Shown: in pieces, positions 1,306-43,942 of the stretch
Layout: each line of letters starts with the position of its first letter
Position numbering within the stretch: the stretch's first letter is position 1
IMG/VR virus record: IMGVR_UViG_3300036826_000136
Coordinates: 1 to 44,069 of that record
DNA: 44,069 bases
Origin: a virus
Direction: 5' to 3' (one strand)
Notes under the pieces: model-generated
The model's input: the letters and a program-made list of their open reading frames with translations, nothing else
Databases searched by the model: none
What the model was told of the DNA's origin: nothing
Position numbers and translations under genes: made by a program

Positions 1306-2270
1306 TACGGCGTATGCACCGCCGGGTAGACACGGATGATCCAGTTGAGCGTGATGAAGGCTGGCCGATCTTGATTATTTGTATCTCCCGATGTTTTTGC
1401 ATTGACCTGAATGTCCGAGGGGTCAGAAGCCGAAGGGCCAATGTGCGCAGGATTGATCGGCCGGTCATAGAGGTGATGGTGTGAGGCCGCACGTTGCGCA
1501 TTGGCCAGGCCGTCGTTCTTGTTGAGTGCGTTGTGATGGACATGCGCTCCTACACCGACGATCATCCGTCCCTGGATGTCGGGGATGTTGAAGCTGGATC
1601 CTGAGCCCCCGAAGGCATAGCCGAGGACATTGAACAGCGCCGCGTAGGTTGTGGTGGAAAGCGAGCGGCCATTGCAGATCATGTAATTGACAGGCTCGGA
1701 GCTACCAGGCCAGGCCGAGATCAGTCCTACCTGGGGATCAACTGCTCCCCCTCCACCACCCCCGCCCCCACTAACGCCAGGAATGGTAATATCAAGACGA
1801 CCGGAAGCTGGATTGTCGGTGACGGTTACACCAGATCCCTGGAAGTTGAGCGTATTGCGGGAAGGCATGGTGCTGCCCTCATCCTGAATGGCAATTACAG
1901 CCCCGGCTAGGTTTGTACTCCAGACCGGGACAGCATCAGTGCCGAGGTTGATCTCCAGACGGTTCGTGGACGAGTTGACGATGACCAGACCATAGGGTCG
2001 AGAGCCTGCCGGGATAGCGTCCCTCTGCGCCGTCGTAAACTGACCGGGCACGATCCCGCCCAGCCCTCGGACAATGCCGTCTGCGCGTAGAGCAGCAGAG
2101 AGGCGGGCCTCCGATGCCCCGTACTTCAAGAGCTGGATGGTGCCGTCCCCGATGCGGACTGTAGCCAGGTCGATCGTCTGCGTGAAATCAGACAGACCAG
2201 CAGCAGCATCCTGAATCGCGTTCAAGTCTCCGGCATAGAGGCGACCGTTAGGGGCAGCACCAGTTGCCAC
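1305..2270 (-). CDS. Tail fibre with collar domain
   Basis: A 321-residue protein. The N-terminal half carries the baseplate-binding part. An eight-glycine run near residue 170 forms a flexible linker. The C-terminal part is a phage tail collar domain (Pfam Tail Collar family): ICNGRSLSTTTYAALF is followed by FNIPDIQGRMIVGVG, a His-rich stretch (SHHHLYD), and the typical ending PAFITLNWIIRV. Proteins of this family form short tail fibres or collar-like adhesins (compare T4 gp12) and bind host surface structures. The gene follows the tail protein I gene and precedes a second appendage gene. The family call is firm; the receptor is unknown. Confidence 0.85.
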   Translation of the reverse strand: MATGAAPNGRLYAGDLNAIQDAAAGLSDFTQTIDLATVRIGDGTIQLLKYGASEARLSAALRADGIVRGLGGIVPGQFTTAQRDAIPAGSRPYGLVIVNSSTNRLEINLGTDAVPVWSTNLAGAVIAIQDEGSTMPSRNTLNFQGSGVTVTDNPASGRLDITIPGVSGGGGGGGGAVDPQVGLISAWPGSSEPVNYMICNGRSLSTTTYAALFNVLGYAFGGSGSSFNIPDIQGRMIVGVGAHVHHNALNKNDGLANAQRAASHHHLYDRPINPAHIGPSASDPSDIQVNAKTSGDTNNQDRPAFITLNWIIRVYPAVHTP

Positions 2271-2303
2271 AAATGTTTTTACTTTTTGAATTTCAATCGC
2301 CTC

Positions 2304-4205
2304 CTATCCGGTAAGGATATCCCGTCCGGTATTGTAGCGTTGCTGTATTTGTTCTGGAGTCAGCCAGTTTTGCGAGAGCGAGACATAGCCTATGTTGCCC
2401 TGGAAGGTTGAGGAGTTGAACCCATCGTCACCAATCCACAACGGCGTGCTAGTGCTGACACACGTTCCAGCAGAATCGACCACAGTCTGATCTACCGCAT
2501 TTATGTAAATCTTGACATTTGACCCGGCCTTCTGGACGACCAGATAGTAAAGACTGTTGTCAAGGTAATTGCTGGAGTGGGCCAGAAGTACCCCACCAGG
2601 AATCGCCACCCGGATCTGATCTCCACCCACTTGCACAAAGAAAGCACCGACGCCCTTGGAAACCAGATAGCCGTTGACACCAGCAGCAGTACGCTTGAAC
2701 CAGCACTCGAAGCACCAGTTGTCACCGAGGTCTAGTCGAGGATGATCAGGTACCTGAATCCGCCCACCGGCAAGAAGAACGTTCTTGCTCGGCCTGGCTG
2801 CAATCGGTACCGAAGTTAAAATTGTCAGATCATCCACTGCGGCCGTACCTTCCGAAGCCATCAGGATCGGTCTGACCGTAGTCAGATTAGCATGAGTATT
2901 GTCAGTCCCCTCTATGACCTTGAACCACTGGCCACCGCTTCTGCGCCAGGCAGTAACTTTGCTCTTATCGTAGAAAATACCGAGGTCATCCCCGGCTAGA
3001 AACGTGGTCGCTGTTCCACCCAGGGTAGAGATCGTTCCATTGATGACGCGATTAATGGAAATGTTGGCATTGCCGCCCGGGAAGCTGAGCACGACCTTGT
3101 ACCAGTTGTCCGTTCCTCCCCCGGTGGGATCACCCAGACCTATCTGTATCTGCTGGCCGGACGGGGGAAGTGTCGACACCTTGACCGAAACACCAGAGGG
3201 GAAGGGATAGGAAGCTGAAGAGTAATACGTGGTGCTGGCTACACCGCCGATATTCTTGGCCTGATTAGAACGCACCGCCCAGGAGCCGATCCACGTCGTC
3301 CAGCCTGTCATCGGCGGGCCTTGATCAGCCCGGTTGAAGTTATCAATTACAGAGCCGGCGCTGATGTAATTAATAGCTGGCTGTTGGTCGTTGACCAGCA
3401 AGGCCAGGTTGTCAAGCGTGTAGGCCCCACTGTACGTCCCGTGCAATGCATCGTAGGCGTAGTCGAGCGCCAGCGTACCCGTAGAAGCTACATCGTTCAG
3501 CTTCCAAAAGCCGTTTGGCTCCAGCATGTCGTAGGTCTCCCACTCATAGTTGAGCGGAGACGGCTTGCCGGTCGTGATCAGTCGGGTAATCCCAGCCGGG
3601 GTGAAATGGTCAAGATCCCGCTGCAATGCAAATACATCCGGTGTAAAATCCGAGTCGATACAGACGTTGTAGCGGAAGCGAGGGATGTCCTCGTAGATCC
3701 GGTACATATCCTTGACCAGCCCGGGCTCGCCGTAGATCGGCACACCGGGGACTCCTGCTACTCCACCCTCCGGGCCGAGATCGACGCCAGGCGGGAACAG
3801 CTTGATCGGCTCGCCATAGGCCAGCGAGAACAGATAGCTCTCCACGATGTTCCTGCGCTGTGTTCTTGTAAATGGGCCTTTGCGCAACCTGGCCAGTACC
3901 GCGTCTCTACGCTGCTGGAGCGTCTGATTAGGCGGATTCATGGGCAGCCCGACTTCGCGCTCCCACTCGTCCAGGAATTGCGAGGAGGTCTGTGCGAAAC
4001 GCTCAGCCCAGATCAGATCGAGCTGATCCTGGCCAAGCTGAATCCAGTCTGAGAAGATTCTGCGCAGAAGCCCCCAGTTGGAATCCTGATTGCCGGGAAA
4101 GAACTTGGGTGGCTCCTCGGCAATGAAACTCCACTCAGCATCGGTCAGCGGTTTCTCAGCCGGGAGTATCGGTTGCTGTGTAATTGGATTGAGTTCTGTG
4201 GTCAT
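2304..4205 (-). CDS. Baseplate/tail protein I-like protein with appended LamG-like domain
   Basis: A 633-residue, three-part protein. Residues 1 to about 215 resemble tail protein I or the YmfQ/DUF2313 group that follows baseplate J in many myoviruses (WAERFAQTSSQFLDEWEREVGL, then QRRDAVLARLRKG). A middle part begins VIDNFNRADQGPP and has a counterpart in the glycosidase-like gene at 27482-29395. The last 150 residues resemble a LamG/concanavalin-type carbohydrate-binding fold (NWCFECWFKRT, IYINAVDQ, GNIGYVSLSQNWLTPEQI). Known members are usually much shorter (about 200 residues), so the C-terminal two thirds are an addition, probably for glycan binding at the baseplate edge. Confidence 0.8.
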   Translation of the reverse strand: MTTELNPITQQPILPAEKPLTDAEWSFIAEEPPKFFPGNQDSNWGLLRRIFSDWIQLGQDQLDLIWAERFAQTSSQFLDEWEREVGLPMNPPNQTLQQRRDAVLARLRKGPFTRTQRRNIVESYLFSLAYGEPIKLFPPGVDLGPEGGVAGVPGVPIYGEPGLVKDMYRIYEDIPRFRYNVCIDSDFTPDVFALQRDLDHFTPAGITRLITTGKPSPLNYEWETYDMLEPNGFWKLNDVASTGTLALDYAYDALHGTYSGAYTLDNLALLVNDQQPAINYISAGSVIDNFNRADQGPPMTGWTTWIGSWAVRSNQAKNIGGVASTTYYSSASYPFPSGVSVKVSTLPPSGQQIQIGLGDPTGGGTDNWYKVVLSFPGGNANISINRVINGTISTLGGTATTFLAGDDLGIFYDKSKVTAWRRSGGQWFKVIEGTDNTHANLTTVRPILMASEGTAAVDDLTILTSVPIAARPSKNVLLAGGRIQVPDHPRLDLGDNWCFECWFKRTAAGVNGYLVSKGVGAFFVQVGGDQIRVAIPGGVLLAHSSNYLDNSLYYLVVQKAGSNVKIYINAVDQTVVDSAGTCVSTSTPLWIGDDGFNSSTFQGNIGYVSLSQNWLTPEQIQQRYNTGRDILTG

Positions 4206-6032: not shown

Positions 6033-6418
6033 TCTCCCTCATCAATGGCAAAGTTGGTGCTGTTGAGAGCACCGAGACAACGGGGCATCCTGTTCGACCC
6101 CATTTCCCTAACGACGATGACCAGCTCTCCGACCTTCGGCACCTTCAGCCTGGCCGTGGCTATCTTCACATCGGTAAAATAGTCGCCCCAGCCCCAGCCG
6201 GTGTTCTTCGGTGTCTCGTCGTAGTATTTCACTTCATACTCGAATCCATAGAGCGGAATCGGAACATCCTCCAGCTCTTTGATCCAGACCAGCCTGTTGT
6301 TGAGATCGTTCTTAGTAACGCGACTGATGATTACAGGGTCGCTGCGTCGTCCAGCAATTTCCTTCGTCAGCTTGGTGACGAACTCTCTGATCGAATCCCA
6401 TTCGTGATCTTCAAGCAT
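6029..6418 (-). CDS. Baseplate spike or plug-like protein
   Basis: A 129-residue protein. After an N-terminal helix (EWDSIREFVTKLTKEIAGRR) the rest is beta-rich, with a short aromatic/Gly stretch NTGWGWGDYF and a strand-rich end KVPKVGELVIVVREMG. Position between the hub (upstream) and the gp25-like wedge (downstream) is where gpV/gp5-type central spike or OB-fold proteins sit in P2-like and T4-like tails. No repeated spike motif was seen, so the role is inferred from order. Its ATG overlaps the last base of the hub gene. Confidence 0.6.
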   Translation of the reverse strand: MLEDHEWDSIREFVTKLTKEIAGRRSDPVIISRVTKNDLNNRLVWIKELEDVPIPLYGFEYEVKYYDETPKNTGWGWGDYFTDVKIATARLKVPKVGELVIVVREMGSNRMPRCLGALNSTNFAIDEGE

Positions 6419-8691
6419 CAGTAGCCAATGTGAATGTGATCCCAGTGGTCAGTAGTGATATGACAGGTATTTCCGCTGCCGTGTTCGGTATCCCACTGCT
6501 GGCAGGCTACGTCACTATCATCGTGGCCATTTCCATTACAAATGATCTGAGTCGGCAGCAAGCCTTGATCACCCAGACCTTTGAGGAATTGCATGATCGA
6601 AATAGTTACATCTTTTGATCCAGACCATTTGACAGGCTGAGCGCCAGTTTTCACCGTACCAACAAGGTCTACATCCACAGCCAGCCCCAGAGGATGCCTG
6701 CCCGAATTGCAGTGATGATCTTCGACAATGGCAAAAGTACCGAGGCTGTAACCGGAATCCATCAGCGTGGAAAGGACAGCCGGTACTCGCCAGTCCAAAT
6801 ACACATCATTGCCGCACTGATTATGAAGAGTCTGCCCTTGGACAACTCTCGACAACTGATCATGCTCGTTGTTGCCAAGGCGGATCCTGCCAGCGGCCTC
6901 ATAGTCGAGAACTCGCTGAGCCCAGTAAGGTGCCGACTTCTTGTTTTTATCAGCAGTGGGCGGCTTACCTGCGCCACCAGGAGGAACGGTGCCGGGTGGC
7001 CAGCCTCCCGGTGGAGGTTGCGGCTCTGAGCCGGGGATAGGAGTGCAGTCCAGGGCATCCCCGGCTAGGCCCAGAATTTTCTCTACACGACCACGGATGT
7101 CTGGAGCCCACTCAGGACAGCAATACTTTGGCCCGACATCCTCAATAGTATTGTTTTTTCCGCTCTTGTGATATGTACCGCTGAACGCCTTAGCATACTC
7201 CAGGTAAACATCACACCAGGAGTTAGAGCTAAAATCATAGGTATGGCCGGGACTACAATTCCAGCCCCAGGTATTGAACCAGCCGCACATCGACGTACCC
7301 AGGACACCCTCCAGGCGAGCGATAGCCGCAATCCAGACTGGATTCATGCCACCCTTGACGCCCTGCTCGACCATGCACTTACCCGTACCATTCATCGGTG
7401 AGTTAGGTTTCTCATCGCTAATGTATTTGTTAATGGCTGCGGCCAGCTTGTCAGCATCGACGATGTTCAAATACTGAGCGTTGCTCATGTCGCAGGTACC
7501 GTTGGGGCCTTTTCCTCCACCCTGACCGGGATTCAACGGCGCAGGAGCAGTACCCTTTCCCTGCTGTTGCACTGCGGTCGTCCACTGAGGATCGTCAGGA
7601 GTGCGCTGCGACAAAGCAAATCCTTCTTCGCGCAAGCGCACCTCCTGGACAAACCCGGAGGCATCACCACGCACCGTAGTGCCGACAATGAAAAAGGTAC
7701 CGTTGATGGCATAGGCGGGCAGGCGCACGGTACAGAGCGTATTGCGCTCAATCAGAAATCCAGGATCAGGAATCGTCACTACCAGCTCCAGGGCTCCCAC
7801 CTTGGATTCGTAAATTTCCTCGTCGGCAACCTTGCGCGCGCCCTTGGCATTGGTGACCGTACTGTTCTCGATGATCTTCACCGGCTTACGTAGCCAGTCC
7901 TGGATCTGCGTGTCGTAGGACGTGACTACCTGACGGCTGTTGTCGTCAGCCTGCTTACCCCAGACAACCTGTGCCTGCCAGATCCGCTGTTGAGCCGACT
8001 TGTGAAAGCTAAAATTTGTGATCGGCAGCTCATCATTCTTGAGAGGGACGGTGCCGAATGCGTACTTGGCCTGGCCTGATGTGAGCAAGGCCGAGGTCAG
8101 GGTACCGTCGGGCTCACACCACAGCCACAGTTTTTCCTTGCGGATCAGTCGGTACCAAAATTCCCAGTAGGTCTCCGAGCCATCGGTGTACTGACGCTTA
8201 GGCCCACCGGGAACAGGAGCCAGATTGAATTTCTCAAAACCCAGCTCCTGAGCCTCTTGCCTGATGATCTCGGCAGCATTCAGACCCCGGTAGGTCTGGG
8301 GGATGTGAACAGAGTCGGTGGCAATCGAGGACAGATCCCTGCCGGAGAGCTGAATCGTGCCACTCTCGGTATAGGAGACATCATCGGTAATGCCGGTCAT
8401 CAAATACACAATATCTGCACCGGCACCGAAAATCTGCACCCTGATCTCGGTATTGCGCGTCAGGGCATCGTTGAGATCCCCGTCGATATTGCCCAGCTCC
8501 AGCGACCAGGAATCAGCGTCGGTGTCGATCGCTGTCTCCACGTTGTACTGCTCGACGCGGTGAACCGTCTGCGCCTTGTAGCTGCCACTACCTTCCCACT
8601 TGGACGTGAGTACGGCCTTGACCTGCGTGGGATCCAGAACACGCGGGCTCGGCGTGCTCAGAGGCTTGCTGGCCTCCTGTGCTACGGGCAC
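6418..8691 (-). CDS. Baseplate hub (gpD-like) with two C-terminal cell-wall-degrading domains
   Basis: A 757-residue protein. Residues 1 to about 375 resemble the gpD/late control hub family (ISSIATDSVHIP-like region, QTYRGLNAAEIIRQEAQELG, and VVWGKQADDNSRQVVTSYD). A Pro/Gly linker follows. Residues about 405-560 look like a glucosaminidase or transglycosylase-type domain (NPVWIAAIARLEGVLGTSM, NTWGWNCSPG, several Cys). A second Pro/Gly linker leads to residues about 600-757, which resemble an M15-type peptidase: GRHPLGLAVDVD followed by the metal-binding ending DHWDHIHIGY (His752, His754). This would cut both glycan and peptide parts of peptidoglycan during DNA injection. Most hubs carry at most one such domain. 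Confidence 0.85.
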   Translation of the reverse strand: MPVAQEASKPLSTPSPRVLDPTQVKAVLTSKWEGSGSYKAQTVHRVEQYNVETAIDTDADSWSLELGNIDGDLNDALTRNTEIRVQIFGAGADIVYLMTGITDDVSYTESGTIQLSGRDLSSIATDSVHIPQTYRGLNAAEIIRQEAQELGFEKFNLAPVPGGPKRQYTDGSETYWEFWYRLIRKEKLWLWCEPDGTLTSALLTSGQAKYAFGTVPLKNDELPITNFSFHKSAQQRIWQAQVVWGKQADDNSRQVVTSYDTQIQDWLRKPVKIIENSTVTNAKGARKVADEEIYESKVGALELVVTIPDPGFLIERNTLCTVRLPAYAINGTFFIVGTTVRGDASGFVQEVRLREEGFALSQRTPDDPQWTTAVQQQGKGTAPAPLNPGQGGGKGPNGTCDMSNAQYLNIVDADKLAAAINKYISDEKPNSPMNGTGKCMVEQGVKGGMNPVWIAAIARLEGVLGTSMCGWFNTWGWNCSPGHTYDFSSNSWCDVYLEYAKAFSGTYHKSGKNNTIEDVGPKYCCPEWAPDIRGRVEKILGLAGDALDCTPIPGSEPQPPPGGWPPGTVPPGGAGKPPTADKNKKSAPYWAQRVLDYEAAGRIRLGNNEHDQLSRVVQGQTLHNQCGNDVYLDWRVPAVLSTLMDSGYSLGTFAIVEDHHCNSGRHPLGLAVDVDLVGTVKTGAQPVKWSGSKDVTISIMQFLKGLGDQGLLPTQIICNGNGHDDSDVACQQWDTEHGSGNTCHITTDHWDHIHIGY

Positions 8692-9788: not shown

Positions 9789-12532
9789 CTGGGATCCTTC
9801 GGGCCGACTGTAATTGTGACCTTCTTCCTACCCACGTTCTTCTTGATCGCTTTCTTCTGCCCGCGCGTCTGTGGATGCGGCCCACCCTGCCAGACCTGAG
9901 AGGGATCGAAGTGCAGCTTGGCCTGATCCTTCTTCTTCGTCTCGTCGGTGAGATCGACGGTAATGGAAATATCTCCATCGAGCTGCACGCGCTTGTCTTT
10001 CGTCAGCTCCTTGAGCAGCCGTTGGTTGTGACTTTCCAGATTGGCCTCAGCGCGACGAATCGCTGTCGGGCTTCCTCTGAGCGTCCTATGTAGAAATTGC
10101 GTTCCTTGAGGTGAGAGGTTGCCGCTGGCTGCCTGCTGCTCAAGAAAGGAAATGAGTGGATGGTCACTGCCGGGACGAAAGGGCAGGGTTTTGAAATTGA
10201 CACGTTGCTTACGGTCTGTCGCAGCAACCAGGCCAAGACTCTGCAAGACCGTACTACCACGCACATCCTTGACCAGATTTTTCAACTCCTCGGGACTCGG
10301 CAAGCCTTTGTGAGTAGCCAGCCATTGCTCAAACTTGCCCATCTTCATCATGCCCATCGGGCCACTGGTAACACGGAGCACCTGCTGGAGGAAGGCAACT
10401 CCCTGCGGGCTGAGATTGCCCTGCATGGCCTGTCGTGCCATCGCTGAGATAAGAGGATGCCTACCGCCCGGATCCGTTCCGCTCTTGGGCTGCTGCTCCC
10501 GATCCGCTGCCAGGAAGCGAACCTGCCTGGCCTCGTCTACCGTCATACCCAAACGCCGCGCGTTCTGTCTATTTTCTCGCTCCCGTCTTTTTCCTTCTTC
10601 ATCGCTACCGATCAGTTTGTGAACAATCGTGCCCCCAATCCCTCGCTTGCCTGTTCGAGGATCAACGTCATGCAAAAACGCCCACCAGTCGCCATGACCA
10701 GTGACGTTCTTGCCATGAAACATATTTCTCAGCTCGATGGCCAGCCCTGCAGCAAAGGCCAAAGGCAGAGCACGCCCGAACAATCTCAACAGCCGACTAT
10801 TGCCACCGGCAGCAACGATGGGAGGAATCCCCGTACCGCCGGTCAGATCGCCAACAGCACCAGCCACTCCAGTGGGGCGACCCATCAGCGACCCTACAAT
10901 TACAACATACAGCGGGTCTATCGGAGACGTTCCCGGGCCTCGGCTACTCAAGAGAGCCTGTGCCGCCAAGAAATTCACCACGGTACGTGGCATTCTTCCA
11001 CCCGCCAGCAGCGCCCCTAGCCCACCCTCAGCTCCAGCAGCGGCCTCTGCTGCCCCTCCTGCCCCACCACGCCTAAGGATTTTCATAATCGCGCCGCCGA
11101 CCTTGCTAAAGATCCCCCTACCGATACCCAGACGTGAAGCGCCCACGCCAATCCCAATCGCAGCCAGCAGTCCTTCACCGATATGACGAATCGTGTTGTG
11201 ATCCGCCGTAAAGGTAAATGTGCTAAATACCTTCTTGGCCGCAGTTTTAAGTCCGGGCACATTCATAATGTCGGTCATTATCGTCTGCCGGATACCGCCG
11301 ATTGCCTGAGCCATCGACTTCAACGGTTGATCGGCCTGGTACTGCTCCCATTCCTTACGCAGATACTCGCCGTCATTTTTGCTAGCATCTGTAATTTGAT
11401 TAATCAGGTTTGTCAACTGGGTCGGGTCATTAGCACCTTTCACCCAGGACAGATAGGCAGAGAGGAAGGCACGTTGAGCAAAGGTCTGCGGAACGAGCTG
11501 CTGGATCAGCTCACGGCCCTTGCCTGAAATACCCAGACCGCCCAGTCCTTCGTTCTCAATCCCGGCCATTCCCTCCATGCGCATGATCGCTTCAGCGCGA
11601 TCACCGCCTTTGACCCCTCCGGCTGCCCGAACAGCCTCAAACATTTTCACCAGATTGTCGAAGCCCTTATTTTGTCCGAGCTTGTCCGGTGACAGGCCGA
11701 TCCCTCGGAAGGCAGCCTGCGTATCCTTGGTCATGTGCTGCATGCCACCGATCAGGCGGATCAGGTAAGCGTTACTGCGACCAATTTGTCCCGGAGTCAA
11801 ACCGGAGACCACACCGGCACCAGTCAGGCCGAGTACCTGCTCCGGTGTCATCCTGGCCGAGACACCAGGAAGTGTCTGTGGAGCGAGCTGCTGAATGAGC
11901 TGTGGTGCAATTTGTGGCCCGCCCGGGACGGTCTGGATCAGCTTGACCCACTCGGCCATCAGGCGTTGAGCCACCTTCGGATCTTTTACATTCTGACCGA
12001 AGATGCGCGGCAGGGTAGTGGCTACACCGGCTAGTGACTCAGCAGGAGTCTGGGCTAGCTGAGCGGCTTCCAGGATCGGCCGTGCGATTCCTGTAATCGC
12101 TTGAGGGCTTTGCATGCCGCTGATGGAGGAAACGATGTTCGTAACCGCCGCGACCACATCCTGCGAGGATGAAAGTGTTTCCACCCCCAGCCTGACCATG
12201 CTCGACGCCAGCTCATCGACACGACTGCGCAGTGTGCCCAGACCAGTCTGGCCCTGATCGGCAGTAATGGTAATCAGGGCAAGCTGCGACTGGAATTGCG
12301 ATGCTCCCCGGACGAGGTTGAACAATCCATAGACCGCTCCCCCGGCGAAGGCATAGCGCAGTGTGGTGCCGATCGCTCTGAATTGCTGATTGAGCAACCC
12401 GGTCTGCCGGGTAGTGCCCTGGACAGTATTTCCTAGCTGCTTGAATACACCAGACGCCCGACCAACGCCAGTGCTTAGCCCAGAGGTGTCAGAGACCCAG
12501 GCAGTGACCAGTTTGCCGACGACGGTACTCAT
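9785..12532 (-). CDS. Tape measure protein
   Basis: A 915-residue protein, the longest in the tail module. It sits directly after the frameshifted chaperone pair, the hallmark position. The N-terminus is GKLVTAWVSDTSGLSTGVGR, followed by long helical stretches. A hydrophobic Ala/Gly-rich segment lies in the middle (LLAAIGIGVGASRLGIGRG and further toward residues 535-600), as is common for tape measures that insert in the membrane during ejection. Two short repeats occur near residues 700 and 795 (HPLISAMARQAMQGNLSPQG and HPLISFLEQQAASGNLSPQG). At roughly 0.15 nm per residue the length would suit a tail of about 135 nm. The C-terminus is very basic. Confidence 0.9.
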   Translation of the reverse strand: MSTVVGKLVTAWVSDTSGLSTGVGRASGVFKQLGNTVQGTTRQTGLLNQQFRAIGTTLRYAFAGGAVYGLFNLVRGASQFQSQLALITITADQGQTGLGTLRSRVDELASSMVRLGVETLSSSQDVVAAVTNIVSSISGMQSPQAITGIARPILEAAQLAQTPAESLAGVATTLPRIFGQNVKDPKVAQRLMAEWVKLIQTVPGGPQIAPQLIQQLAPQTLPGVSARMTPEQVLGLTGAGVVSGLTPGQIGRSNAYLIRLIGGMQHMTKDTQAAFRGIGLSPDKLGQNKGFDNLVKMFEAVRAAGGVKGGDRAEAIMRMEGMAGIENEGLGGLGISGKGRELIQQLVPQTFAQRAFLSAYLSWVKGANDPTQLTNLINQITDASKNDGEYLRKEWEQYQADQPLKSMAQAIGGIRQTIMTDIMNVPGLKTAAKKVFSTFTFTADHNTIRHIGEGLLAAIGIGVGASRLGIGRGIFSKVGGAIMKILRRGGAGGAAEAAAGAEGGLGALLAGGRMPRTVVNFLAAQALLSSRGPGTSPIDPLYVVIVGSLMGRPTGVAGAVGDLTGGTGIPPIVAAGGNSRLLRLFGRALPLAFAAGLAIELRNMFHGKNVTGHGDWWAFLHDVDPRTGKRGIGGTIVHKLIGSDEEGKRRERENRQNARRLGMTVDEARQVRFLAADREQQPKSGTDPGGRHPLISAMARQAMQGNLSPQGVAFLQQVLRVTSGPMGMMKMGKFEQWLATHKGLPSPEELKNLVKDVRGSTVLQSLGLVAATDRKQRVNFKTLPFRPGSDHPLISFLEQQAASGNLSPQGTQFLHRTLRGSPTAIRRAEANLESHNQRLLKELTKDKRVQLDGDISITVDLTDETKKKDQAKLHFDPSQVWQGGPHPQTRGQKKAIKKNVGRKKVTITVGPKDPR

Positions 12533-13281
12533 CTAGCGCTTGAAGCCTCGTGATGTCGTCCGCTGTAGATCAATCTCCCAGTCCTCATCGTCCTCACCCG
12601 GTCGGTAGACCAGCTCCTGCAGCTCCTCGGGCAAATCAGCAATAACCGACACCGGCTCCCCACAGATTTCACACGTATCCTGATTGAATTTGGTCATGCA
12701 GTGGGTGTGGATCTTTGCAATTCGTTCGTCATAGTCGATGAGTTGGTTGAGATAGATCCAAGTAAGTTGTCCGTGAGTGGCTCTGGACTCAATGCTAAAA
12801 GGAGCCGTTTCACCGCGTACCATTGCCTTCCAGACAAATCTTTCCAGTCCATTTCCTGCAAGGCTTTTTTTAGCTTGTCCAGCTCCTCATCACCAAGACC
12901 GTCAACGGAGGGCGATGTCCTGTCCACCATCTCGAAGTAGGCATCAATCAGAAAATTGATGTCCTGCACCTCCAGAGTCTCTCCAACTTCCTTGCCGGTC
13001 TTGAATACCTTTTCCAGTGTGTCGGGGCTGCGGATGGAGTAGGCCAGAACCTCGGCTATCTGCATCCGCTCGCGAAGCTGCACACCAATGTCGCCATCGG
13101 GCACAGTCAGTTGTGCCCCCAGCATCATGCAGTTGATGTACTCCGATTCCAGCAGTGGCACCAGGGCCACTCTCACTTCCGGGTCTGAGAGCAATTCAAA
13201 ATAGGCACAGACTTGCTGACCGAGCCGCATTTTGGTCAGTCTGCGCTCTGTGAGAAACTCACGGCTGATCGCCGTTGCCAC
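12533..13281 (-). CDS. Tail assembly chaperone GT fusion made by -1 frameshift
   Basis: The long product of a programmed -1 ribosomal frameshift. Ribosomes read frame 0 from 13281 to the slippery run at 12871-12865, where lysine codons AAA-AAA follow an A, giving the canonical A-AAA-AAA heptamer. They then slip back one base and continue without a stop to 12533, giving 249 residues (139 before and 110 after the shift). The added part contains a CEICGE motif and an acidic end. In lambda and most long-tailed phages the G and GT proteins coat the tape measure during assembly. The gene directly precedes the tape measure. Confidence 0.8.
12694..13281 (-). CDS. Tail assembly chaperone G-like protein
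   Basis: The unshifted product, 195 residues, mainly helical (REFLTERRLTKMRLGQQVCAYF at the start, DEELDKLKKALQEMDWKDL before the end). It has the position and overlapping downstream frame of lambda gpG. The ATG at 13281 overlaps the end of the zinc-ribbon gene by 23 bases. After the slippery site the frame 0 tail runs another 57 codons to the stop at 12694. No enzymatic motif is expected or seen. Confidence 0.8.
   Translation of the reverse strand: MATAISREFLTERRLTKMRLGQQVCAYFELLSDPEVRVALVPLLESEYINCMMLGAQLTVPDGDIGVQLRERMQIAEVLAYSIRSPDTLEKVFKTGKEVGETLEVQDINFLIDAYFEMVDRTSPSVDGLGDEELDKLKKALQEMDWKDLSGRQWYAVKRLLLALSPEPLTDNLLGSISTNSSTMTNELQRSTPTA
12865..12871 (-). promoter_or_regulatory. Slippery heptamer for -1 frameshift (A-AAA-AAA)
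   Basis: On the coding strand the frame 0 codons are CTA AAA AAA GCC, giving a seven-A run in the X-XXY-YYZ register. The -1 frame is open from here to 12533, although its first ATG is only at 12823, so a fusion is more likely than separate initiation. The arrangement directly upstream of the tape measure gene is the standard one for G/GT chaperones. Confidence 0.8.
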
Positions 13282-23569: not shown

Positions 23570-24616
23570 CTACGGAAGGGTGATCTTCTGGACGGAATTG
23601 GCCATGTCCGCGTACAGGCCCCGGCGCGCCCTTCCTACTTGCTGCCCTTCGATCAAGCGGGAGATGTCAGGCGGGCCGATGTCGATGCGCAGATCGTGAT
23701 GCACGAACTCCTTGAAGCGCTGCTTGGGGAAGATGAAATAGCACGTCCCCGTGGTCACACCCGGATAGGTGATCAGCTTGACGCCGTTCTGGATCGAGGA
23801 GCCGTTGTAGTAGATGATGGTGTCCACGGGCACCCGGGCCAGTGGATTGCCCTGAGAGTCCCTTACAGGGGCGAGTAGGGCATCCTCGATCTTGAAGCGA
23901 TCGGCCTCATTGGCGAGGATGATGCTGGGCGTGCGCTGCGGAGTGGCCTGCACCGCAGCTACATAAGCAGCCTGGAAGGTGAGCAGAACCTTCTCGCTGA
24001 GAGTTGCGCCCGTGGCGTTAGCCGCCGTCGAGTTCCCACCCGCATAGCTGAAGCCGGTGATCGGGCTGATGTGCAGATGGTTGAGGAGGTAATTGTAGCT
24101 TCGACCGAAGGCCCGGTTGTTGAGCGTGATGTCCCAGGTCTTGTCGAACTCAATTACATCCTCAGTCCACTCGAAGCCCGCCGCATAGGTCTGAATCGAG
24201 ACGGTAGCCGGAACACCCTTAGCCAGCGTACCGAATACAACCTCGCCACCCTCAAACTTCTCCAGGAAGTGAACGTTGGCCTGGAGGGTGTACTCGTTGA
24301 GCTGAATTACACCGCCGGGGAAGGGGCCGGGGATCATGTCGTAGATCGGGCCGTAGAGGAGCGGTACCTCAGCGAGACCGAAATCGACATCGACCCTGAC
24401 CTTCTCCAGCAGATCCATCGAGCCAACAGCGGTTGTGATCATTTCCGAGATCGGCCGCTTCAGCTCAACCTCATACATCTCGTCCAGGAAGGCGTCTACC
24501 TGAGCCTGCATCTCCCGAACGTTGTAAATCCGAATCGGGCCGTAGTCTGTCCGCCGCACCTCAGGTTTCCACACCTGATGTGCCAGCTCGACAAACTCCT
24601 CTGTTGCGATCGCCAT
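23570..24616 (-). CDS. Major capsid protein
   Basis: A 348-residue protein of the HK97-fold major capsid type. Signs are an N-terminal segment without a clear signal (VELAHQVWKPEVRRTDYGPI), an E-loop-like region, the stretch DRFKIEDALLAPVRDSQGNP, the conserved IIYYNGSSIQNGVKLITYPG and FPKQRFKEFVHHDLRIDIG, and an ending rich in capsid-typical strands. It lies downstream of the protease-scaffold gene and a small decoration gene, the usual order. Shells would be built from several hundred copies. The family cannot be fixed further from sequence alone. Confidence 0.82.
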   Translation of the reverse strand: MAIATEEFVELAHQVWKPEVRRTDYGPIRIYNVREMQAQVDAFLDEMYEVELKRPISEMITTAVGSMDLLEKVRVDVDFGLAEVPLLYGPIYDMIPGPFPGGVIQLNEYTLQANVHFLEKFEGGEVVFGTLAKGVPATVSIQTYAAGFEWTEDVIEFDKTWDITLNNRAFGRSYNYLLNHLHISPITGFSYAGGNSTAANATGATLSEKVLLTFQAAYVAAVQATPQRTPSIILANEADRFKIEDALLAPVRDSQGNPLARVPVDTIIYYNGSSIQNGVKLITYPGVTTGTCYFIFPKQRFKEFVHHDLRIDIGPPDISRLIEGQQVGRARRGLYADMANSVQKITLP

Positions 24617-31029: not shown

Positions 31030-32522
31030 TCGTTCTTTCCTTGCTGCCCTTGCGTAACCGGGACGTTGCGCGGATTGCCGCTGCCGTTGGGCGTAGGCTC
31101 CGGAAGCGTGTTGAAATTATCCTTGGCGTCGGTAGCCTCCTGTCCGGGGTTCTTCATCGCTGGCAGGAAGGGCCTGACGATCTCCCGGTAGGTCTCGTCG
31201 GAGATGATCTGCCTCTGGGCCAGAACCTCCAGGGACATGACCAGCATCTGCATGCCCTGAGCCATGTTGGTCAGCTCGTCGGCACGCTGCACGTCCCAGG
31301 AGATGGCCGGACAGACAACCGGGCGGTTGTTGGCCAGCATGATGATCTTGAGCAGCTTCTGGATCGGCTCCACGTAATTTTTTCGCTTGCGGTCGATTTT
31401 TTTCATAAAGGGGACAGTTTGCGCGTTGTTGCTCTGATTGGCAGAGCCGGGCTCGATCAGCATGAAGGCCCAGCGGGGAGTCTCGGAGGCGACAACGATG
31501 CAGTCGATCAGGAAGGTGAGCAGCTCCTTGGAGTCGTTGAGCACCGAGCGAGCCTCCACGAAGGAAGCATCCTCGGTCGCCTGCAAGAAAAGAATCTCAC
31601 GGCCTTGCCAGGAAATCTCGGCCCGGGCCTTGATCGTGCCCGTCTCGGCATCCCAGGCTTCGGGGAAGTTGTTGCGGATGAAGGTGGAGACTTCCTCCAG
31701 CTTGAACATGATCTTCGGCACTGAATGGTATTTGTGGGCCTGCAGGGACTGGCACATGACATCGTGGAAGGCACGGATGAAGGGCAGCAGAGGCTCCAGA
31801 TCCGATTGCCCGCCGGACAGGGAGCTGTCGTATTCGTTCCAGACTTCGACCAGGGGGACGATGCCCCAGGTGTTGGGGCGGGCCATGTCCTCCAGCCAGC
31901 GGCGGTCGGTACGGTCGAAGTAGCGGTAACCCTCTTGTGAGATAATCTCCAGGATCTCATGCTCCGTCTCTTTGGGCAGAATCCCGTTGACCAGATCCTC
32001 TTCTTCCTCCACGAAGAGGACGTGGCGGGTGATGAAGGCTTTTTCAATTACATCCTTGTTACCCGGATCGTATTCCAGAACGACACGCTCGGGGTCTACG
32101 ACCTCCAGCCTGCCGTACTGGCGCTCCTGAAGCGTCATCAGTGGATTGTCGAGATCGGGGAACTTGACGTAGACGATGGTCTTGCTATCACGCATTGCGT
32201 TCCGCAGCATCTCCTGGATTGGCTCCAGCCAATAGTCCTTGAGACAGGTGTTGAGGAAATCGTCCAGATCCGCGTCCTCGGTAGCAGCTTGGGGCTGTCC
32301 GGTGAAATTCACAGCAAGGTCGATGACCGGCTTGCAGAACTGAGCACCCAGCGACCATTCCGTACCCTCGTTGCGATAGAGGGAGCGAGCTTCGTCGTAA
32401 TGGATCAGTGTGCCGTCATAGCGTGGCCGGTCACCCCAGAATTTCATCGTTAGCGAGCGCGTCAGCGAGCGCAGCCCTGACCAGGGCCAGCCCCAGGTAG
32501 GCATGATGCCGCTGGGGAACAT
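31026..32522 (-). CDS. Portal protein
   Basis: A 498-residue protein with the length and pattern of a phage portal. It has an N-terminal GLRSLTRSLTMKFWGDRPRY, the region YRNEGTEWSLGAQFCKPVID, a clip/wing region with LEVVDPERVVLEYDPG, and a helical stem/crown region (AEISWQGREILFLQATEDAS, KELLTFLIDCIVVASETPRW, MLIEPGSANQSNNAQTVPFM). It follows the TerS-like and TerL genes in the standard order. I use ATG 32522 after the upstream stop; in-frame GTG or ATG codons up to 32564 lie inside the upstream gene. Twelve copies would form the DNA channel at one vertex. Confidence 0.82.
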   Translation of the reverse strand: MFPSGIMPTWGWPWSGLRSLTRSLTMKFWGDRPRYDGTLIHYDEARSLYRNEGTEWSLGAQFCKPVIDLAVNFTGQPQAATEDADLDDFLNTCLKDYWLEPIQEMLRNAMRDSKTIVYVKFPDLDNPLMTLQERQYGRLEVVDPERVVLEYDPGNKDVIEKAFITRHVLFVEEEEDLVNGILPKETEHEILEIISQEGYRYFDRTDRRWLEDMARPNTWGIVPLVEVWNEYDSSLSGGQSDLEPLLPFIRAFHDVMCQSLQAHKYHSVPKIMFKLEEVSTFIRNNFPEAWDAETGTIKARAEISWQGREILFLQATEDASFVEARSVLNDSKELLTFLIDCIVVASETPRWAFMLIEPGSANQSNNAQTVPFMKKIDRKRKNYVEPIQKLLKIIMLANNRPVVCPAISWDVQRADELTNMAQGMQMLVMSLEVLAQRQIISDETYREIVRPFLPAMKNPGQEATDAKDNFNTLPEPTPNGSGNPRNVPVTQGQQGKNE

Positions 32523-32532
32523 CTCGGTAATT

Positions 32533-33126
32533 CTAGTTCTCAGACTCACCGGCGGATGCCTCAAGCAGCGACTCCATCTGCTCGATTAGCTGTGCAGCCT
32601 TCTCCTGCACCTCGGGGGAGGCATTGCGCAGGGAGTCGGTAATTCCGTCGTCGGAGAAGGTGGTCATCTGCTCCTCGGTCTTGTGCACGGTGGCCTCGGA
32701 GCGGGACATCTTCGGCAGCCCGCAGCGATCGAGGATGTCCGAGGCAGCCTGCAGGATCCACTTGTCGTCCGTGGAGGAGCGCATGACATCGACAATCGCC
32801 TGCACGGCCTCGATCGAGTAGGACTGCAGGAGGTTGTAGGCGGCGGCGGGGATTTTCTCCCTCAGCTCGACCAACAGCTCCTGCATGTCCGGCGTGCGCA
32901 TGAACTCGTTGACCTGCGTGTGGGCGAGACCGACCACGGCACCAATTTGCTGATTGCTGTAACCGGCGATTTTGAGAATGGCAGCCATCTCCTTGAGGTG
33001 CTGCTCCTCGCCGGTGACCAGCTTGCGACGGCGCTCGTGGGTGAGCTTGTACTGACGGCGGATGCGGTTGCTGCCCTCCTCCAGGATCAACTGCCTGGAC
33101 TCGGGATCGCGTGGAGTTCTAGGCAA
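32533..33126 (-). CDS. Small terminase subunit-like protein
   Basis: A 197-residue protein. The start is TTG 33126, 8 bases behind GGAGG; the TTG overlaps the end of TerL by 8 bases. A helix-turn-helix region lies near residues 50-75 (ILKIAGYSNQQIGAVVGLAH), then a helical oligomerisation part (LREKIPAAAYNLLQSYSIEA) and the segment WILQAASDILDRCGLPK, which is common in small terminase subunits. The acidic C-terminus would contact TerL. Such proteins recognise the packaging start site. The order TerL-TerS-portal is reversed relative to most phages, where TerS comes first. Confidence 0.7.
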   Translation of the reverse strand: MPRTPRDPESRQLILEEGSNRIRRQYKLTHERRRKLVTGEEQHLKEMAAILKIAGYSNQQIGAVVGLAHTQVNEFMRTPDMQELLVELREKIPAAAYNLLQSYSIEAVQAIVDVMRSSTDDKWILQAASDILDRCGLPKMSRSEATVHKTEEQMTTFSDDGITDSLRNASPEVQEKAAQLIEQMESLLEASAGESEN

Positions 33127-34795
33127 CGAAATTACCTCCTCGTTGAAATGCCTCACCCAGGGCAGCAGGGACGGCCAGGCCGGGATTCCTGAGCGTGGCC
33201 ACTGTGCAGAACATATCGGCGTGGTGCCAGTGGTCGAGATTGCGGTTCTTTTTCCACCTGGCCACCATCCGGCCCTGGACATCCTCCTCCTCGACCCTGA
33301 CCTGCTGGATCATTTGGTAATAGAAACCGTTGTATTCACGGTTCTCGATGTTCTCCCCGATCTCGCGAGCGTAGTGGGGGAGGATGACCTGCCCGTGGAT
33401 GTACTGGTAGATGACGGTGTCGAAGGCCAGGGTGCGGTCGATCACGCAGCGAGCCGCCTCCCGGTGCTTGATCGTGTGCCAGTGAGCGATCTCCTCCGTC
33501 TGCGGACGATCCTGCTCGAAACCGAGCCAGACCCGGCCAGGGTATTTCAAAGAGAGATCCCGAGCCGCTCTTTTTTCCGGATGAGCGTCGATCACGCACA
33601 TGAAGCCGATCAGGCCGCTGAGGAAATTATCGAGTTCGCTCCATTCGCGGAAGATCCGAAAGGCCCACGCTTTGCGGTGCCCGTGGCGGGTGAGGGTGTC
33701 TGCACGGACGTGCAGATGGGTGCCCACATCCACCCCAACGAAAACGGGGCCTTCCGGGATCCCGCCCTCTCGATGTCCTGAAACCCGACACTTGTCCAGG
33801 ATCTCGGGCGTCAGTTGGTCTCCCTCGGCGACATAGGGGAGACCAAGGTTGTTGTTGAAAAAAGACTTGAGCCGCTTGGAATCCCGCTGCCCGGCGAAGT
33901 AGCCCTTGAGGATGTCGGTCAGCGGCTGCGTGGGCGAGTTGAATTGATTGATGTGGTAGCCACGCAGATGACCGTTGAGATTCTGGGGAGTCCAGCGACC
34001 GAACTCGTTGAGGGCAAAGCGGTGCCTGTCCTGGATCTGCTGGCGGCAGTGCTGGCAGACGAGCACAGACTCATCGGGGGTATCCCCCAGTTTTACATTT
34101 TCATCGAAATTGAAAGCCTGGAAGCGACCGCAGTGCGGGCAGGGGACTTCCCAGTGGTGCTGATCGGAGGCCCACCAGGCATCCTCGGCATCGACCCCAT
34201 GACCGGGGGCGGTGGGAGTAGAGAGTTGGACGAGCTTCTTGATCCTGGAGCCGTCCATGCGGTGGCGGGCGTCATCGAGGTTTTCCTCGATCATGCGATC
34301 GCGCTCGTCCCAGACTTCGACATCGACAGGAATTTCCTGCAGCTCGCGATTGATATTGGTACCCCGGATGTAAACGGAGATGCCGTCCCGGGTCTGCTTG
34401 TGCAGGCGGTTATCGACGGTGGAGAAAATCTCCCTGATCTCCGGATTGCTCTCGATGATGGGGTCGATACGGGCCTGCACGAAGGGGACTGCTCCCGTCT
34501 TTAGCGGCAGGAGGTAGAGGTGGTGCCAGCGGCGCTGTGTCGTCCAGTGCAGCGTGCGGGTGAGGAAGGTGACGGTGAAGGCCATCTGCGCCGCCTTGGG
34601 GATGATGATTTCATCGGACATATCCCTGATCACGGCCGTGACGTACTCCCGACCCGCAAGGCTGAAAGGTTTGCCGTCCACTCTCAGTCCCATACTGAGT
34701 GCCCACTCATCGGGGCGTGCTAGTTGCCTGACCTGAGAGAATTGCTTCCGTTTCCTGAGCGATTGCCTGCTCGGAGCTGAAGAAGCCGACGACAT
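33119..34795 (-). CDS. terL: Terminase large subunit, GpA-like
   Basis: A 558-residue packaging motor of the GpA family. Signs are the N-terminal RPDEWALSMGLRVDG, the ATPase region (DEIIIPKAAQMAFTVTFLTR, Walker A equivalent; DVEVWDERDRM, acidic Walker B-like), a zinc knuckle pair (CPHC, CQHC around residues 243 and 279), and the C-terminal nuclease part with VFVGVDVGTHLHV and later acidic residues (VIDAHPE, HHADMF). I place the start at ATG 34795. The frame stays open to GTG 34891, but that extra part is read from a purine/pyrimidine tract and looks non-coding; a GGGGGAG sits before the GTG, so the longer form cannot be excluded. Confidence 0.82.
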   Translation of the reverse strand: MSSASSAPSRQSLRKRKQFSQVRQLARPDEWALSMGLRVDGKPFSLAGREYVTAVIRDMSDEIIIPKAAQMAFTVTFLTRTLHWTTQRRWHHLYLLPLKTGAVPFVQARIDPIIESNPEIREIFSTVDNRLHKQTRDGISVYIRGTNINRELQEIPVDVEVWDERDRMIEENLDDARHRMDGSRIKKLVQLSTPTAPGHGVDAEDAWWASDQHHWEVPCPHCGRFQAFNFDENVKLGDTPDESVLVCQHCRQQIQDRHRFALNEFGRWTPQNLNGHLRGYHINQFNSPTQPLTDILKGYFAGQRDSKRLKSFFNNNLGLPYVAEGDQLTPEILDKCRVSGHREGGIPEGPVFVGVDVGTHLHVRADTLTRHGHRKAWAFRIFREWSELDNFLSGLIGFMCVIDAHPEKRAARDLSLKYPGRVWLGFEQDRPQTEEIAHWHTIKHREAARCVIDRTLAFDTVIYQYIHGQVILPHYAREIGENIENREYNGFYYQMIQQVRVEEEDVQGRMVARWKKNRNLDHWHHADMFCTVATLRNPGLAVPAALGEAFQRGGNFVA

Positions 34796-34807
34796 CGAAT
34801 GCAGTCT

Positions 34808-34873
34808 AGTGGGAGAGGAAAAAAGAGAGGAGGGAGAAAGGAGGGGAGAGAGGGAAGGGAGGAGGAGGGAGCG
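34808..34873. repeat. Polypurine tract upstream of terL
   Basis: About 66 bases on the plus strand are almost only G and A (blocks such as GGGAGAGGAAAAAAGAGAGG), so the leftward transcript carries a long C/U run just before terL. There are no exact tandem units. Mirror-symmetric purine tracts can form triplex structures. The tract could also act as a spacer or as part of a packaging signal; its place between the 62-residue gene and terL is the only hint. Confidence 0.7.
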
Positions 34874-34924
34874 AGTTGCAGAAGCCTCCACTCCCTCCCC
34901 CGGGGGGAACAGCGAGGTTAGCTG

Positions 34925-35729: not shown

Positions 35730-36430
35730 CCCCGTTGATCTACCCAAAAAATTTTCCCAATTACATTTGGTAATTCATAGATGGTGTGCTACTACGCCCA
35801 CACAGAATTACAATGTGAAACTCATTGGCGGTGTACCTATACGCCCCCCGGCCCGATCGTCTGCTTGTAAGTGCCCACTCACCTTCCCGGTAAACCCTCC
35901 CGGTATCCCCTCGGACAAATACATTTGTAAGTGGTGACTTACATCATCCTGAATTACCTGTGAAATTGTGGTTTCGTGTGGCCCATGAAGGAGCCATGAT
36001 TGAGAGACGAGAGAACAGGGGTTCATCCTCAGTAGTACCCCAAGGGTTAGATAGGGGGACAATTTCAAGCCCGCCCTGGGGGAATTCCTGAGAGAATCAG
36101 TGAGGGAACATCACTTCCTCATTCTCTTCCTGCTACTGGCAAGGGAGAAAGCCTGTGAGGTCTCTTGCAGGGACGGTTCTTTCTTGGCCCGCATTGGAAG
36201 AATTTCTATCCTTGGGAATTACCAAATAGAGCCGAAAGGAGAGGGTACTGTGCTCCTGCTGGCTCCTCTGTTCCTGCTAGCTCTCACTCAGGCCCGCCCT
36301 GGGCAATTGCTTATGTAATCCACTGGCTAGCGCTGGCCCTACCGATGCTTGACAGCGCGGCTTCAGGAGCCTCCCCTGCTGCGCTAGGGAAACGCCGACC
36401 TAGCGATCTTCCTTCACCTTGCTTCACCCA
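35730..36430. other. Non-coding region between plus-strand genes and terminator
   Basis: About 700 bases with no convincing gene. It holds several short hairpins, for example GTAAGTGGTGACTTAC at 35929-35944 and GTGTGCTACTACGCCCACAC near 35782-35801. TTGTAAGTG occurs twice (near 35865 and 35927), and two TGTAATT-family heptamers are at 35759 and 35806. One 31-codon plus-strand frame (35997-36092) has GGAGCC in front but is too weak to call. A plus-strand terminator closes the region at 36431. Confidence 0.6.
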
Positions 36431-38830: not shown

Positions 38831-39541
38831 CATCAGGGGATTACCGATTAGTGCGCTGGAGTCCTAACGGCCGTGAGGCGGTTTCGTGAATCCCTTGCGG
38901 GGCACTTGACGTCCTCCAGCTATGTCCGCCCCGCGCCTGCGAGGCAGGCAGAGCTTACACCCTGCACAGGAAATTGCAAGCCCTACCGTCGCGGGCGCAA
39001 TTATCGGGACAGTCTAATTTCTTGACAGACGGGCTCGGGGCTGTTACCGTTAGCCGCAGCATGATGTAATTAGTAGCGGTAAGTAGCGGGTCGGATTAGA
39101 GCGCAGGATTATAATTACAATCTATAGCAGATTGTTTTTGTATTCCTGCAGGGATTGGCCGGGACTATCGCCAGCTCAATTCCATCCCATTAATTACATC
39201 ATCTCAGCGAAATACGGGTTTGGCAAATTGAGCCACCCGGGAGCGGGTCGCCCTGACACCAGCCAGACACCGGAATTTTTGCTCAATTTTTTGGGCCTCG
39301 GCCGGAGAGGAGGGATGCTCGGCAACGTGGAGGCCTGGTCTGCCGCGCGGACAGGGGAGAGAACCCACGTGGACTCTCCTCTCCAGTCGTCTGGCCCGCT
39401 TACGATCCTAGCAGCTCTCTGTGCATTCCTCTTGCGTCGGCGCGTCGGCAGTTGTGGAGCTAGGATCACCTGGCCCGGAGGCTGAGGGAGCTTCCTGTAG
39501 TTATCTGTACCAATACGGCCAGTATCCCGGTGCGCGGATGA

Positions 39542-40806: not shown

Positions 40807-40858
40807 GCTATCCCCTTTGGTCGAATTACCTTATAGCCCTACGGTAGCATAATTACAT

Positions 40859-41246: not shown

Positions 41247-41275
41247 AGGATACACAATTACACTTTACCTGTCAA
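41247..41275 (-). promoter_or_regulatory. Sigma70-like promoter P1
   Basis: On the minus strand TTGACA (41275-41270) and TATCCT (41252-41247) are 17 bases apart. The stretch from TTGACA through TGTAATT matches promoter P2 in 19 of 20 positions. The stop codon of the 53-residue gene lies inside TTGACA. It faces the gene at 40859-41203. Confidence 0.75.
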
Positions 41276-42353: not shown

Positions 42354-42389
42354 GGCTATCCCCTCTCACTCGAATTACACACTGAGCGG

Positions 42390-42418
42390 AGTCTACAGAA
42401 TTACACTTCACCTGTCAA
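42390..42418 (-). promoter_or_regulatory. Sigma70-like promoter P2
   Basis: Minus-strand TTGACA (42418-42413) and TAGACT (42395-42390) are separated by 17 bases. The -35 box and first half of the spacer (TTGACAGGTGAAGTGTAATT) match P1 except at one base. It reads toward 42353-42117 and the genes after it. A second TGTAATT (42379-42373) lies downstream of the -10 box. Confidence 0.75.
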
Positions 42419-43454: not shown

Positions 43455-43472
43455 TGCTATCCCCTTTTGAAA

Positions 43473-43655
43473 TTAAGCCCTGCGGAAGAAAATCTTAGCC
43501 AGCTCATCGGCCTGTGCCTTGGCGATGTTGAGCCCGAAGGTCAGCCGACGTAGATGGGCCATCGCCGGATCATCCAGCTTGGGGTCGTGCGGTACGGTTC
43601 GGTCGTACCACTCCTGCATGGACTCTTGCTCCGTGGCCCATTCGTAATCGCTCAC
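43473..43655 (-). CDS. Hypothetical helical protein
   Basis: A 60-residue protein starting at GTG 43655, behind AGGTGAC and overlapping the previous stop (GTGA). It is helical (EWATEQESMQEWYDRTVPHD, AMAHLRRLTFGLNIAKAQAD). The family is not recognised. Confidence 0.65.
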   Translation of the reverse strand: MSDYEWATEQESMQEWYDRTVPHDPKLDDPAMAHLRRLTFGLNIAKAQADELAKIFFRRA

Positions 43656-43942
43656 GTTCGTGTCACCTGCTTAATCGGTACCGTGCGCTCGTCAACTGGT
43701 TCCACCACAATTACACTCAGTTTCGTCTCCTTTGTATTTGTCGGCTCGAACAGCAGAGTTAGATTCGCACCCTCCAGGGCATGATCGTCACATAGGTATG
43801 CGTTGCTTTCCGGTGCAAACATGGCAGCAGTCTTGCTCTTGTCCGGGTGCCCGTTATGCCAGACCCGACAGCGAACACCGATCCGGTTTTTCCCTTCTCG
43901 GGCACAGTTGTGGACAATACAGAACGGATAACTGTCACTCAT
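43652..43942 (-). CDS. Putative zinc-binding small protein
   Basis: A 96-residue protein with C8, C13, C25, H29, C51 and H54 spaced as a possible zinc-binding set (FCIVHNCAREGKNRIGVRCR, YLCDDHALEG). A strand-rich C-terminal half follows (NLTLLFEPTNTKETKLSVIV). ATG 43942 overlaps the upstream gene. A protein- or nucleic-acid-binding role is inferred from the Cys/His pattern only. Confidence 0.65.
   Translation of the reverse strand: MSDSYPFCIVHNCAREGKNRIGVRCRVWHNGHPDKSKTAAMFAPESNAYLCDDHALEGANLTLLFEPTNTKETKLSVIVVEPVDERTVPIKQVTRT

Follow-up and report, generated by a model that had tools for sequence, protein, structure and literature searches.

TGTAATT sites in the window

The sequence analysed here (hereafter the window, meaning the whole stretch of 44,069 bp) is positions 1 to 44,069 of the IMG/VR virus record IMGVR_UViG_3300036826_000136, has a G + C content of 56.3%, and is scattered with copies of the heptamer TGTAATT. 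Nearly all of its genes run leftward. Their products include a GpA-type terminase, whose large subunit (TerL; 33119..34891, minus strand) served as query for the family search and tree, a portal protein, a capsid-like protein (phrog_3116; 23570..24616, minus strand) that was also used as query for relatives, sheath-like, baseplate and tail-collar proteins, a DUF932 protein and a 2OG-Fe(II) oxygenase. Within its myovirus family the window is a mild case; no near relative was found among annotated phages, a megablast search of its first 25 kb against known phages returned no match, and neither did an Rfam scan.

The heptamer occurs 32 times in the window, 21 times on the minus strand (AATTACA when read on the plus strand) and 11 times on the plus strand, whereas 1.9 or 2.7 copies are expected under order-1 and order-2 Markov models, respectively, corresponding to an enrichment of 12-17 fold. 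It ranks first for over-representation among all 7-mers of the window and first of the 105 arrangements of its own letters, and the reversed control TTAATGT is absent together with its complement (0 copies). The original prediction, made by eye, of about 30 copies and a roughly ten-fold excess over 2-3 expected copies is thus borne out, TGTAATT remaining an outlier when k-mers are counted against a Markov background. No wider consensus was found flanking the window sites beyond the heptamer itself.

On the minus strand the copies lie at 1893-1899, 3345-3351, 10898-10904, 15363-15369, 15387-15393, 21598-21604, 22276-22282, 24152-24158 and 24305-24311 (both in the capsid-like gene, 23570-24616), 25357-25363, 25662-25668, 32046-32052 (in the portal gene), at the intergenic positions 35759-35765, 35806-35812, 39113-39119, 39192-39198 and 40851-40857, and at 41256-41262, 42373-42379, 42399-42405 and 43709-43715. 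Those on the plus strand are found at 1682-1688 (in the tail gene 1305-2270), 3365-3371 (forming a near-inverted pair with the copy at 3345), 4179-4185, 9809-9815, 11390-11396, 14729-14735, 22814-22820, 23263-23269, 26888-26894, 29041-29047 and 39065-39071 (intergenic). All positions listed earlier are real except 22275, which should be 22276, and the plus-strand copies at 1682 and 4179 had been overlooked, so that the split first given as about 21 to 9 holds for the minus strand only. At 21:11 the strand bias does not reach significance (binomial p = 0.11), that of the degenerate word TGNAATT (66 copies in the window, 41:25 by strand) has p = 0.06, and the relatives described below show proportions near 50:50; the description of the sites as mostly one-directional is consequently not supported.

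Genes as well as spacers contain the heptamer, as had been claimed, with 22 of the 32 copies in genes. When synonymous codons were shuffled with the proteins kept fixed, 2.5 +/- 1.3 coding copies were obtained against the 22 observed (z 14.6), and 16.5 +/- 3.5 against 51 for TGNAATT. All 12 sense coding copies are in the frame xxT-GTA-ATT (one of the two other frames would hold the stop TAA), and the 10 antisense coding copies are read as AAT-TAC (4) or ATT-ACA (6); more than one reading frame is used, as first noted. A DNA-level signal present in coding and non-coding DNA and unexplained by codon use is thus strongly supported, in agreement with the earlier view that codon choice is insufficient.

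Two promoter-like sequences, P1 (TTGACA-N17-TATCCT; 41247..41275, minus strand) and P2 (TTGACA-N17-TAGACT; 42390..42418, minus strand), are the only two close sigma-70 matches in the window. Both spacers contain TGTAATT, as originally observed (expected, 0.03), at 41256-41262 in P1 and at the same spacer position, 42399-42405, in P2, and these two copies are placed in promoter-like sequences as operators would be. The copy at 42373-42379 lies just downstream of P2, and the intergenic copy at 40851-40857 is, by reading of the sequence, preceded by CTGACA at nearly the distance of the -35 hexamers of P1 and P2.

Site words, spacing and turnover in related phages

Relatives were collected from IMG/VR (51 by TerL and 25 by capsid) and their genes called by a simple longest-open-reading-frame method; on the basis of metagenome identifiers and general knowledge, we take them to be soil phages. 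Almost all family contigs examined are saturated with a site of 6-7 bp (TGNAATT, TGAAAT[TC], TGAAA[AT] or TGA[CA]AA). Dense genomes have about one site per 100-200 bp, the highest total for a genome being about 600; the signal is thus carried by the family, and more strongly than by the window. The top words are TGAAATT and TGTAATT, with TGCAATT and TGGAATT (jointly TGNAATT), and in other clades TGAAATC, TGAAAAC/T or TGACAA. TGNAATT is present 421 times in the 74 kb of G002 (0 reversed controls; orientations 208:213) and 252 times in the 43 kb of G006 (5 reversed controls), and TGACAA 426 times in the 64 kb of G004 (48 expected) and 369 times in the 71 kb of G017C84 (37 expected). In most of the dense relatives the codon shuffle gave z of about 15-25. 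Orientations are about 50:50, with genes running mostly one way, and coding site density nearly equals non-coding density. In G002, 33 convergent pairs form the partial overlapping palindrome TGNAATTNCA, which is seen only in TGNAATT phages. Motif fitting by expectation-maximisation converged for G001-G004, G006-G008 and G011; the fits for the window, G005 and G009 drifted into codon periodicity.

The motif class follows the TerL tree (40 contigs). TGACAA characterises the clade G004/G017C84/L052/L056; TGAAATC is used by L037, L041, L043 and L046, and more weakly by L050; G001, L039 and L055 use TGAAATC/TGAAAAC; and the remaining contigs use mainly TGNAATT. The weakest enrichment among the 40 TerL-bearing contigs is that of short ones (e.g. 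L012 and L050). The motif is absent from G012 (L084), which was reached through its DUF932 gene alone, and nothing comparable was found in the controls (lambda, T7, Caulobacter phage Seuss and one contig of a metagenome-assembled genome, or MAG).

Spacing was described by its coefficient of variation (CV), which for pooled strands is 0.62 in G004 (null 0.94 +/- 0.04), 0.65 in G017C84, 0.71 in G006 and 0.74 in G008 (null about 0.95); evenness is less marked in G001-G003, and the window shows none. Among hexamers with at least 100 copies, TGACAA ranks lowest in CV in both G004 and G017C84. In G004, the variance/mean ratio of site counts is 0.31-0.41 at all scales from 250 bp to 4 kb, gaps below 45 bp are depleted and long gaps are rare. 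Evenness is confined to pooled strands: per-strand spacing equals that obtained by random relabelling, so the selected property is blind to orientation.

Site turnover was followed between G004 and G017C84, which share 70% nucleotide identity across 41.6 kb of aligned coding DNA. They retain 184 common sites, of 358 and 329 (51-56%), against 29% of control hexamers. Shared sites have too few neighbours unique to G017C84 (11 within 45 bp, where 46.8 +/- 5.6 are expected), and sites unique to G004 have too many (90, where 63.6 +/- 5.6 are expected); small alignment shifts could inflate the nearest bins of this last comparison, and the excess is still present at 16-30 bp. Because about half of the sites have moved while density was kept, and because gained sites keep away from those retained and gather close to those lost, it is well supported that selection acts on coverage or density more than on individual positions.

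A candidate reader and a proposed explanation of the sites

The six near-complete relatives (G001-G005 and G017C84) all carry a cassette that encodes a small protein with a Gly-Arg-Pro tail, a HIRAN protein and an AT-hook protein. The small protein has 82-130 amino acids and ends in Gly-Arg-Pro, the core of the AT-hook. The HIRAN-domain protein was recognised by name or by alignment in five of the six (G001, G003, G004, G005 and G017C84). The AT-hook protein (about 250-300 amino acids) comprises an N-terminal helical (Rho_N-like) domain, a conserved three-helix core and long Lys/Arg/Ala/Pro tails, with RGRP AT-hooks in several members; its AlphaFold2 model is mostly disordered around two helical domains. 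No convincing match to this model was returned by structure searches, no homolog was found among annotated phages, and among 199 genomes of the phylum of the MAG that holds one member of the family the contig of that MAG itself was the only hit. The near-complete relatives also encode a DnaB-like helicase, a Toprim primase, Pol III alpha, RecA and an XPB-like helicase, not each gene having been checked in every genome. The XPB-like helicase gene of G002 (L093:7629-9842) is split by an intein with an HNH-like part.

The small cassette protein is predicted to be a winged helix-turn-helix (HTH) protein of the MerR type. Its AlphaFold2 model (pLDDT, the model confidence score, 78.9) is closest in structure to CadR (Z 8.0; 57 residues at 1.5 A), RacA (Z 7.5) and GlnR (Z 6.7; 57 residues at 1.5 A), with BldC also ranking near the top of the Foldseek matches. 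In TGNAAT-type phages the sequence of the recognition helix is WIRKLE/WIRRLE, and in phages with TGAAAA or TGACAA it is WLRKLE; this agreement between helix and motif, in six genomes, is suggestive only. GlnR and TnrA recognise TGTNA-N7-TNACA (PMC9948412), and the site of a BldC protomer is AATTXXXX(C), its A/T part being contacted through the minor groove with an additional major-groove base pair (PMC5859096). This fold would thus offer precedents for both halves of the motif, since GlnR and TnrA read TGTNA and BldC an AATT-like sequence in the minor groove.

The explanation preferred here, with a probability of about 0.6, is that a sequence-specific protein encoded by the phage covers the genome via a family-wide short site (core TG-N-A-A-[T/A]-[T/C]). 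Computation shows that the site is spread through genes and spacers and on both strands, more evenly than random in the denser genomes, that its turnover is compensated, and that its sequence drifts along the phage tree. The protein would bind the sites one by one, pairs less than about 45 bp apart being avoided. Together with an AT-hook partner, the bound protein may coat, organise, compact, shield or silence the genome, and such coating would probably keep the host RNA polymerase off the DNA until it is needed. From co-occurrence in six related genomes and from the fold precedents, we infer that the best candidate reader is the small MerR-type protein, in which TG(N)A would be contacted by the winged HTH through the major groove and the A/T half by the Gly-Arg-Pro AT-hook or the wing through the minor groove; the adjacent histone-like AT-hook protein is its likely partner. 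At the P1 and P2 spacer sites of the window, the same protein could act as a repressor of initiation.

Several observations weigh against this explanation. TGNAATT reaches 1.5 sites per kb in the window, where dense genomes have about 5-9 motif sites per kb, and the window sites are randomly spaced (CV 0.96). The motifs of the relatives show no preference for promoter spacers; since the promoter excess is not found in them, the feature common to the family is coverage and not promoter control. For the small protein, all Pfam matches (MerR_1, HTH_17 and HTH_31) are below the cut-off and no Foldseek E-value passes 0.001, and the lineages on which the helix-motif agreement was read are not independent. 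Finally, the window is without the cassette, whose presence in this phage is only inferred. Its absence is expected because the window stops before the place that the cassette occupies in related phages: the window ends about 9 kb upstream of terL, and in the relatives the upstream distance from terL to the cassette is roughly 5-20 kb (for G002 and G004, on the assumption that the record wraps around).

The reader could instead be a nucleoid or regulatory protein of the host, the sites being enriched by the phages in order to recruit it. The window contig has no recognised reader gene and the motif classes could mirror host clades, yet the motif tracks phage phylogeny, and each of the six near-complete phages has a cassette encoding two proteins with AT-hooks. 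The MAG holding one member (labelled Acidobacteria, binning uncertain) has only 435 TGNAATT in about 4.5 Mb, and no word enriched to a similar degree is present in C32, a contig sampled from it; a host reader is thus considered unlikely. A capsid-profile search for cellular hosts matched only two MAG contigs, which is insufficient to establish a host. A lysogeny repressor that blocks initiation and elongation at its sites, as in cluster A mycobacteriophages, was the comparison originally proposed, and is more doubtful still. Stoperators are 13-mers present in more than twenty copies per genome, in promoters and short intergenic spaces, oriented with transcription, and their reversal abolishes function (PMC9283540). 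The sites described here resemble those of the L5 repressor in being short, asymmetric and dispersed in a phage genome, also at promoters (the spacers of P1 and P2), and the weak leftward excess of 21:11 in the window points the same way; they differ in being 6-7 bp long, up to about 600 per genome, located in genes, orientation-blind and evenly spaced. Thus the DNA-level signal beyond codon use stands and the analogy with one-directional, transcription-tied stoperators is not supported, because orientations are 50:50 in the relatives, evenness is found with pooled strands only, most copies lie in genes (coding density nearly equals non-coding) and density reaches one per 100-200 bp, with hundreds of sites; moreover, the protein scans gave no integrase or lysogeny repressor among Pfam/PHROG matches.

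The uptake, primase, Chi and methylation readings fit less well than a strand-blind DNA-covering protein. Targets of a DNA modification enzyme, by analogy with HIP1 and orphan methyltransferases, would suit even coverage with compensation if the modification shielded the DNA from nucleases, and G002 encodes a 2OG-Fe(II) oxygenase and a glycosyltransferase-like protein, the window also encoding a 2OG-Fe(II) oxygenase. This reading is nonetheless very unlikely: no DNA methyltransferase was recognised among the scanned non-core proteins of G002 and G004, no oxygenase among the scanned proteins of G004, whose sites are the most even, and the motif is asymmetric, its variants retaining an A/T-rich core and not one modifiable base in a fixed context. 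Strand-specific replication or recombination signals (primase starts or Chi-like sites) are highly improbable even in phages that encode a primase, a DnaB-like helicase, Pol III alpha and RecA of their own, since action on one strand predicts evenness per strand and evenness is found only when strands are pooled. Least probable of all is a functionless context-dependent mutation, codon or dipeptide bias: sense-strand copies do favour particular codon pairs, but the codon-shuffle z of about 15-25 stands against it, and mutation bias cannot yield mutual avoidance, under-dispersed counts and compensatory turnover.

Among other known systems, RacA and BldC have the winged-HTH fold predicted for the candidate reader. 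RacA organises DNA from dispersed sites; its sites are GC-rich, unlike those considered here. BldC reads AATT and makes a major-groove contact. It binds direct repeats in filaments at promoters, whereas the phage protein has a Gly-Arg-Pro AT-hook tail and, if the assignment is correct, hundreds of single sites. Tandem filaments of the BldC kind (head-to-tail, on repeats about 9 bp apart) were rejected because site pairs less than about 45 bp apart are depleted. GlnR and TnrA are also MerR-type winged-HTH proteins reading TGTNA half sites, to one of which the TGTAA of the heptamer fits; they use an inverted pair with a 7-bp gap, whereas single sites dominate here. Lsr2/H-NS-type and phage-encoded nucleoid proteins coat DNA, some with AT-hook-like contacts; they read A/T-richness or shape, and are not known to go with a genome-wide enrichment of one word. 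The cyanobacterial word HIP1 (GCGATCGC) is similar as a very frequent short word kept genome-wide, with alternative words in some lineages. HIP1 is, however, a palindrome associated with a methyltransferase (PMC4390886) and found in cellular genomes, in contrast to a non-palindromic A/T-rich phage word for which no DNA methyltransferase was recognised among the scanned non-core proteins of G002 and G004 (not all proteins were scanned, and the window is incomplete); non-palindromic words dominate, with a partial overlapping palindrome in some genomes. The system is therefore not a stoperator system, a HIP1-type palindrome with its methyltransferase or a BldC tandem filament; its closest functional counterpart would be a nucleoid-associated protein, though one whose address is unusually specific.

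A fuller account is possible, and is advanced tentatively: this soil-phage lineage would keep a lattice of hundreds of even, orientation-blind sites read by the phage winged-HTH/AT-hook protein and its histone-like partner, i.e. a phage chromatin addressed by sequence, in which word and reader co-evolve. If so, a phage can impose a genome-wide code, one word per 100-200 bp written into its genes, that addresses a DNA-covering protein, at a density well above that of stoperators and in contrast to the coating by H-NS or Lsr2, which is shape-based. The natural variants (TGNAATT, TGAAAT[TC], TGAAAA and TGACAA), with matching proteins, would then make reader/site co-evolution testable, such a coverage system may account for DNA shielding or organisation in these phages, and the motif lattice would serve as a sequence signature for finding more of them in metagenomes. 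The open-access literature searched, the coverage of which was incomplete, contained no earlier description of phages saturated with evenly spaced motifs.

Additional sequence features

In the window, GGTACC and CGGTACC are also over-represented, CGGTACC/GGTACCG having 24 sites (e.g. 8101, 8151, 19112 and 19138) against 3.3 expected (order-1 Markov). A tRNA-Ser(GGA) was predicted at 7259-7342 (minus strand), within and on the same strand as a baseplate-hub-like gene (6418-8691), and is possibly a false positive. Six copies of AGGGGATAGC are located directly 5' of early-gene start codons between 40814 and 43463 on the minus strand (43463, 42362, 41912, 41444, 41214 and 40814), as a repeated translation leader. 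It resembles the start-associated sequence of cluster K mycobacteriophages, and is not repeated in the relatives.

Arrays of a 7-bp tandem repeat, CCAAAAT, are present in L135 (contig C31 of the Acidobacteria-labelled MAG G017) at about 7109-7176, 11815-11882, 12669-12731, 14179-14231 and 17336-17392. Strong palindrome avoidance was observed in G001, G002, G003, G004 and G006, involving in several of these CGATCG (1 copy vs 68 expected in G004), GCCGGC and 7-mers containing GAATTC; this depletion looks like restriction avoidance. Two distant capsid relatives, L137 (Bacillus phage BSP7) and L141 (Weizmannia phage Youna2), both with queC/D/E-like and folE-like genes, have a word of their own, CTGCGG, evenly spaced at about one per kb (50 copies vs 8.2, CV 0.68, in BSP7; 40 vs 11.9 in Youna2), which is perhaps the same strategy with a different reader.

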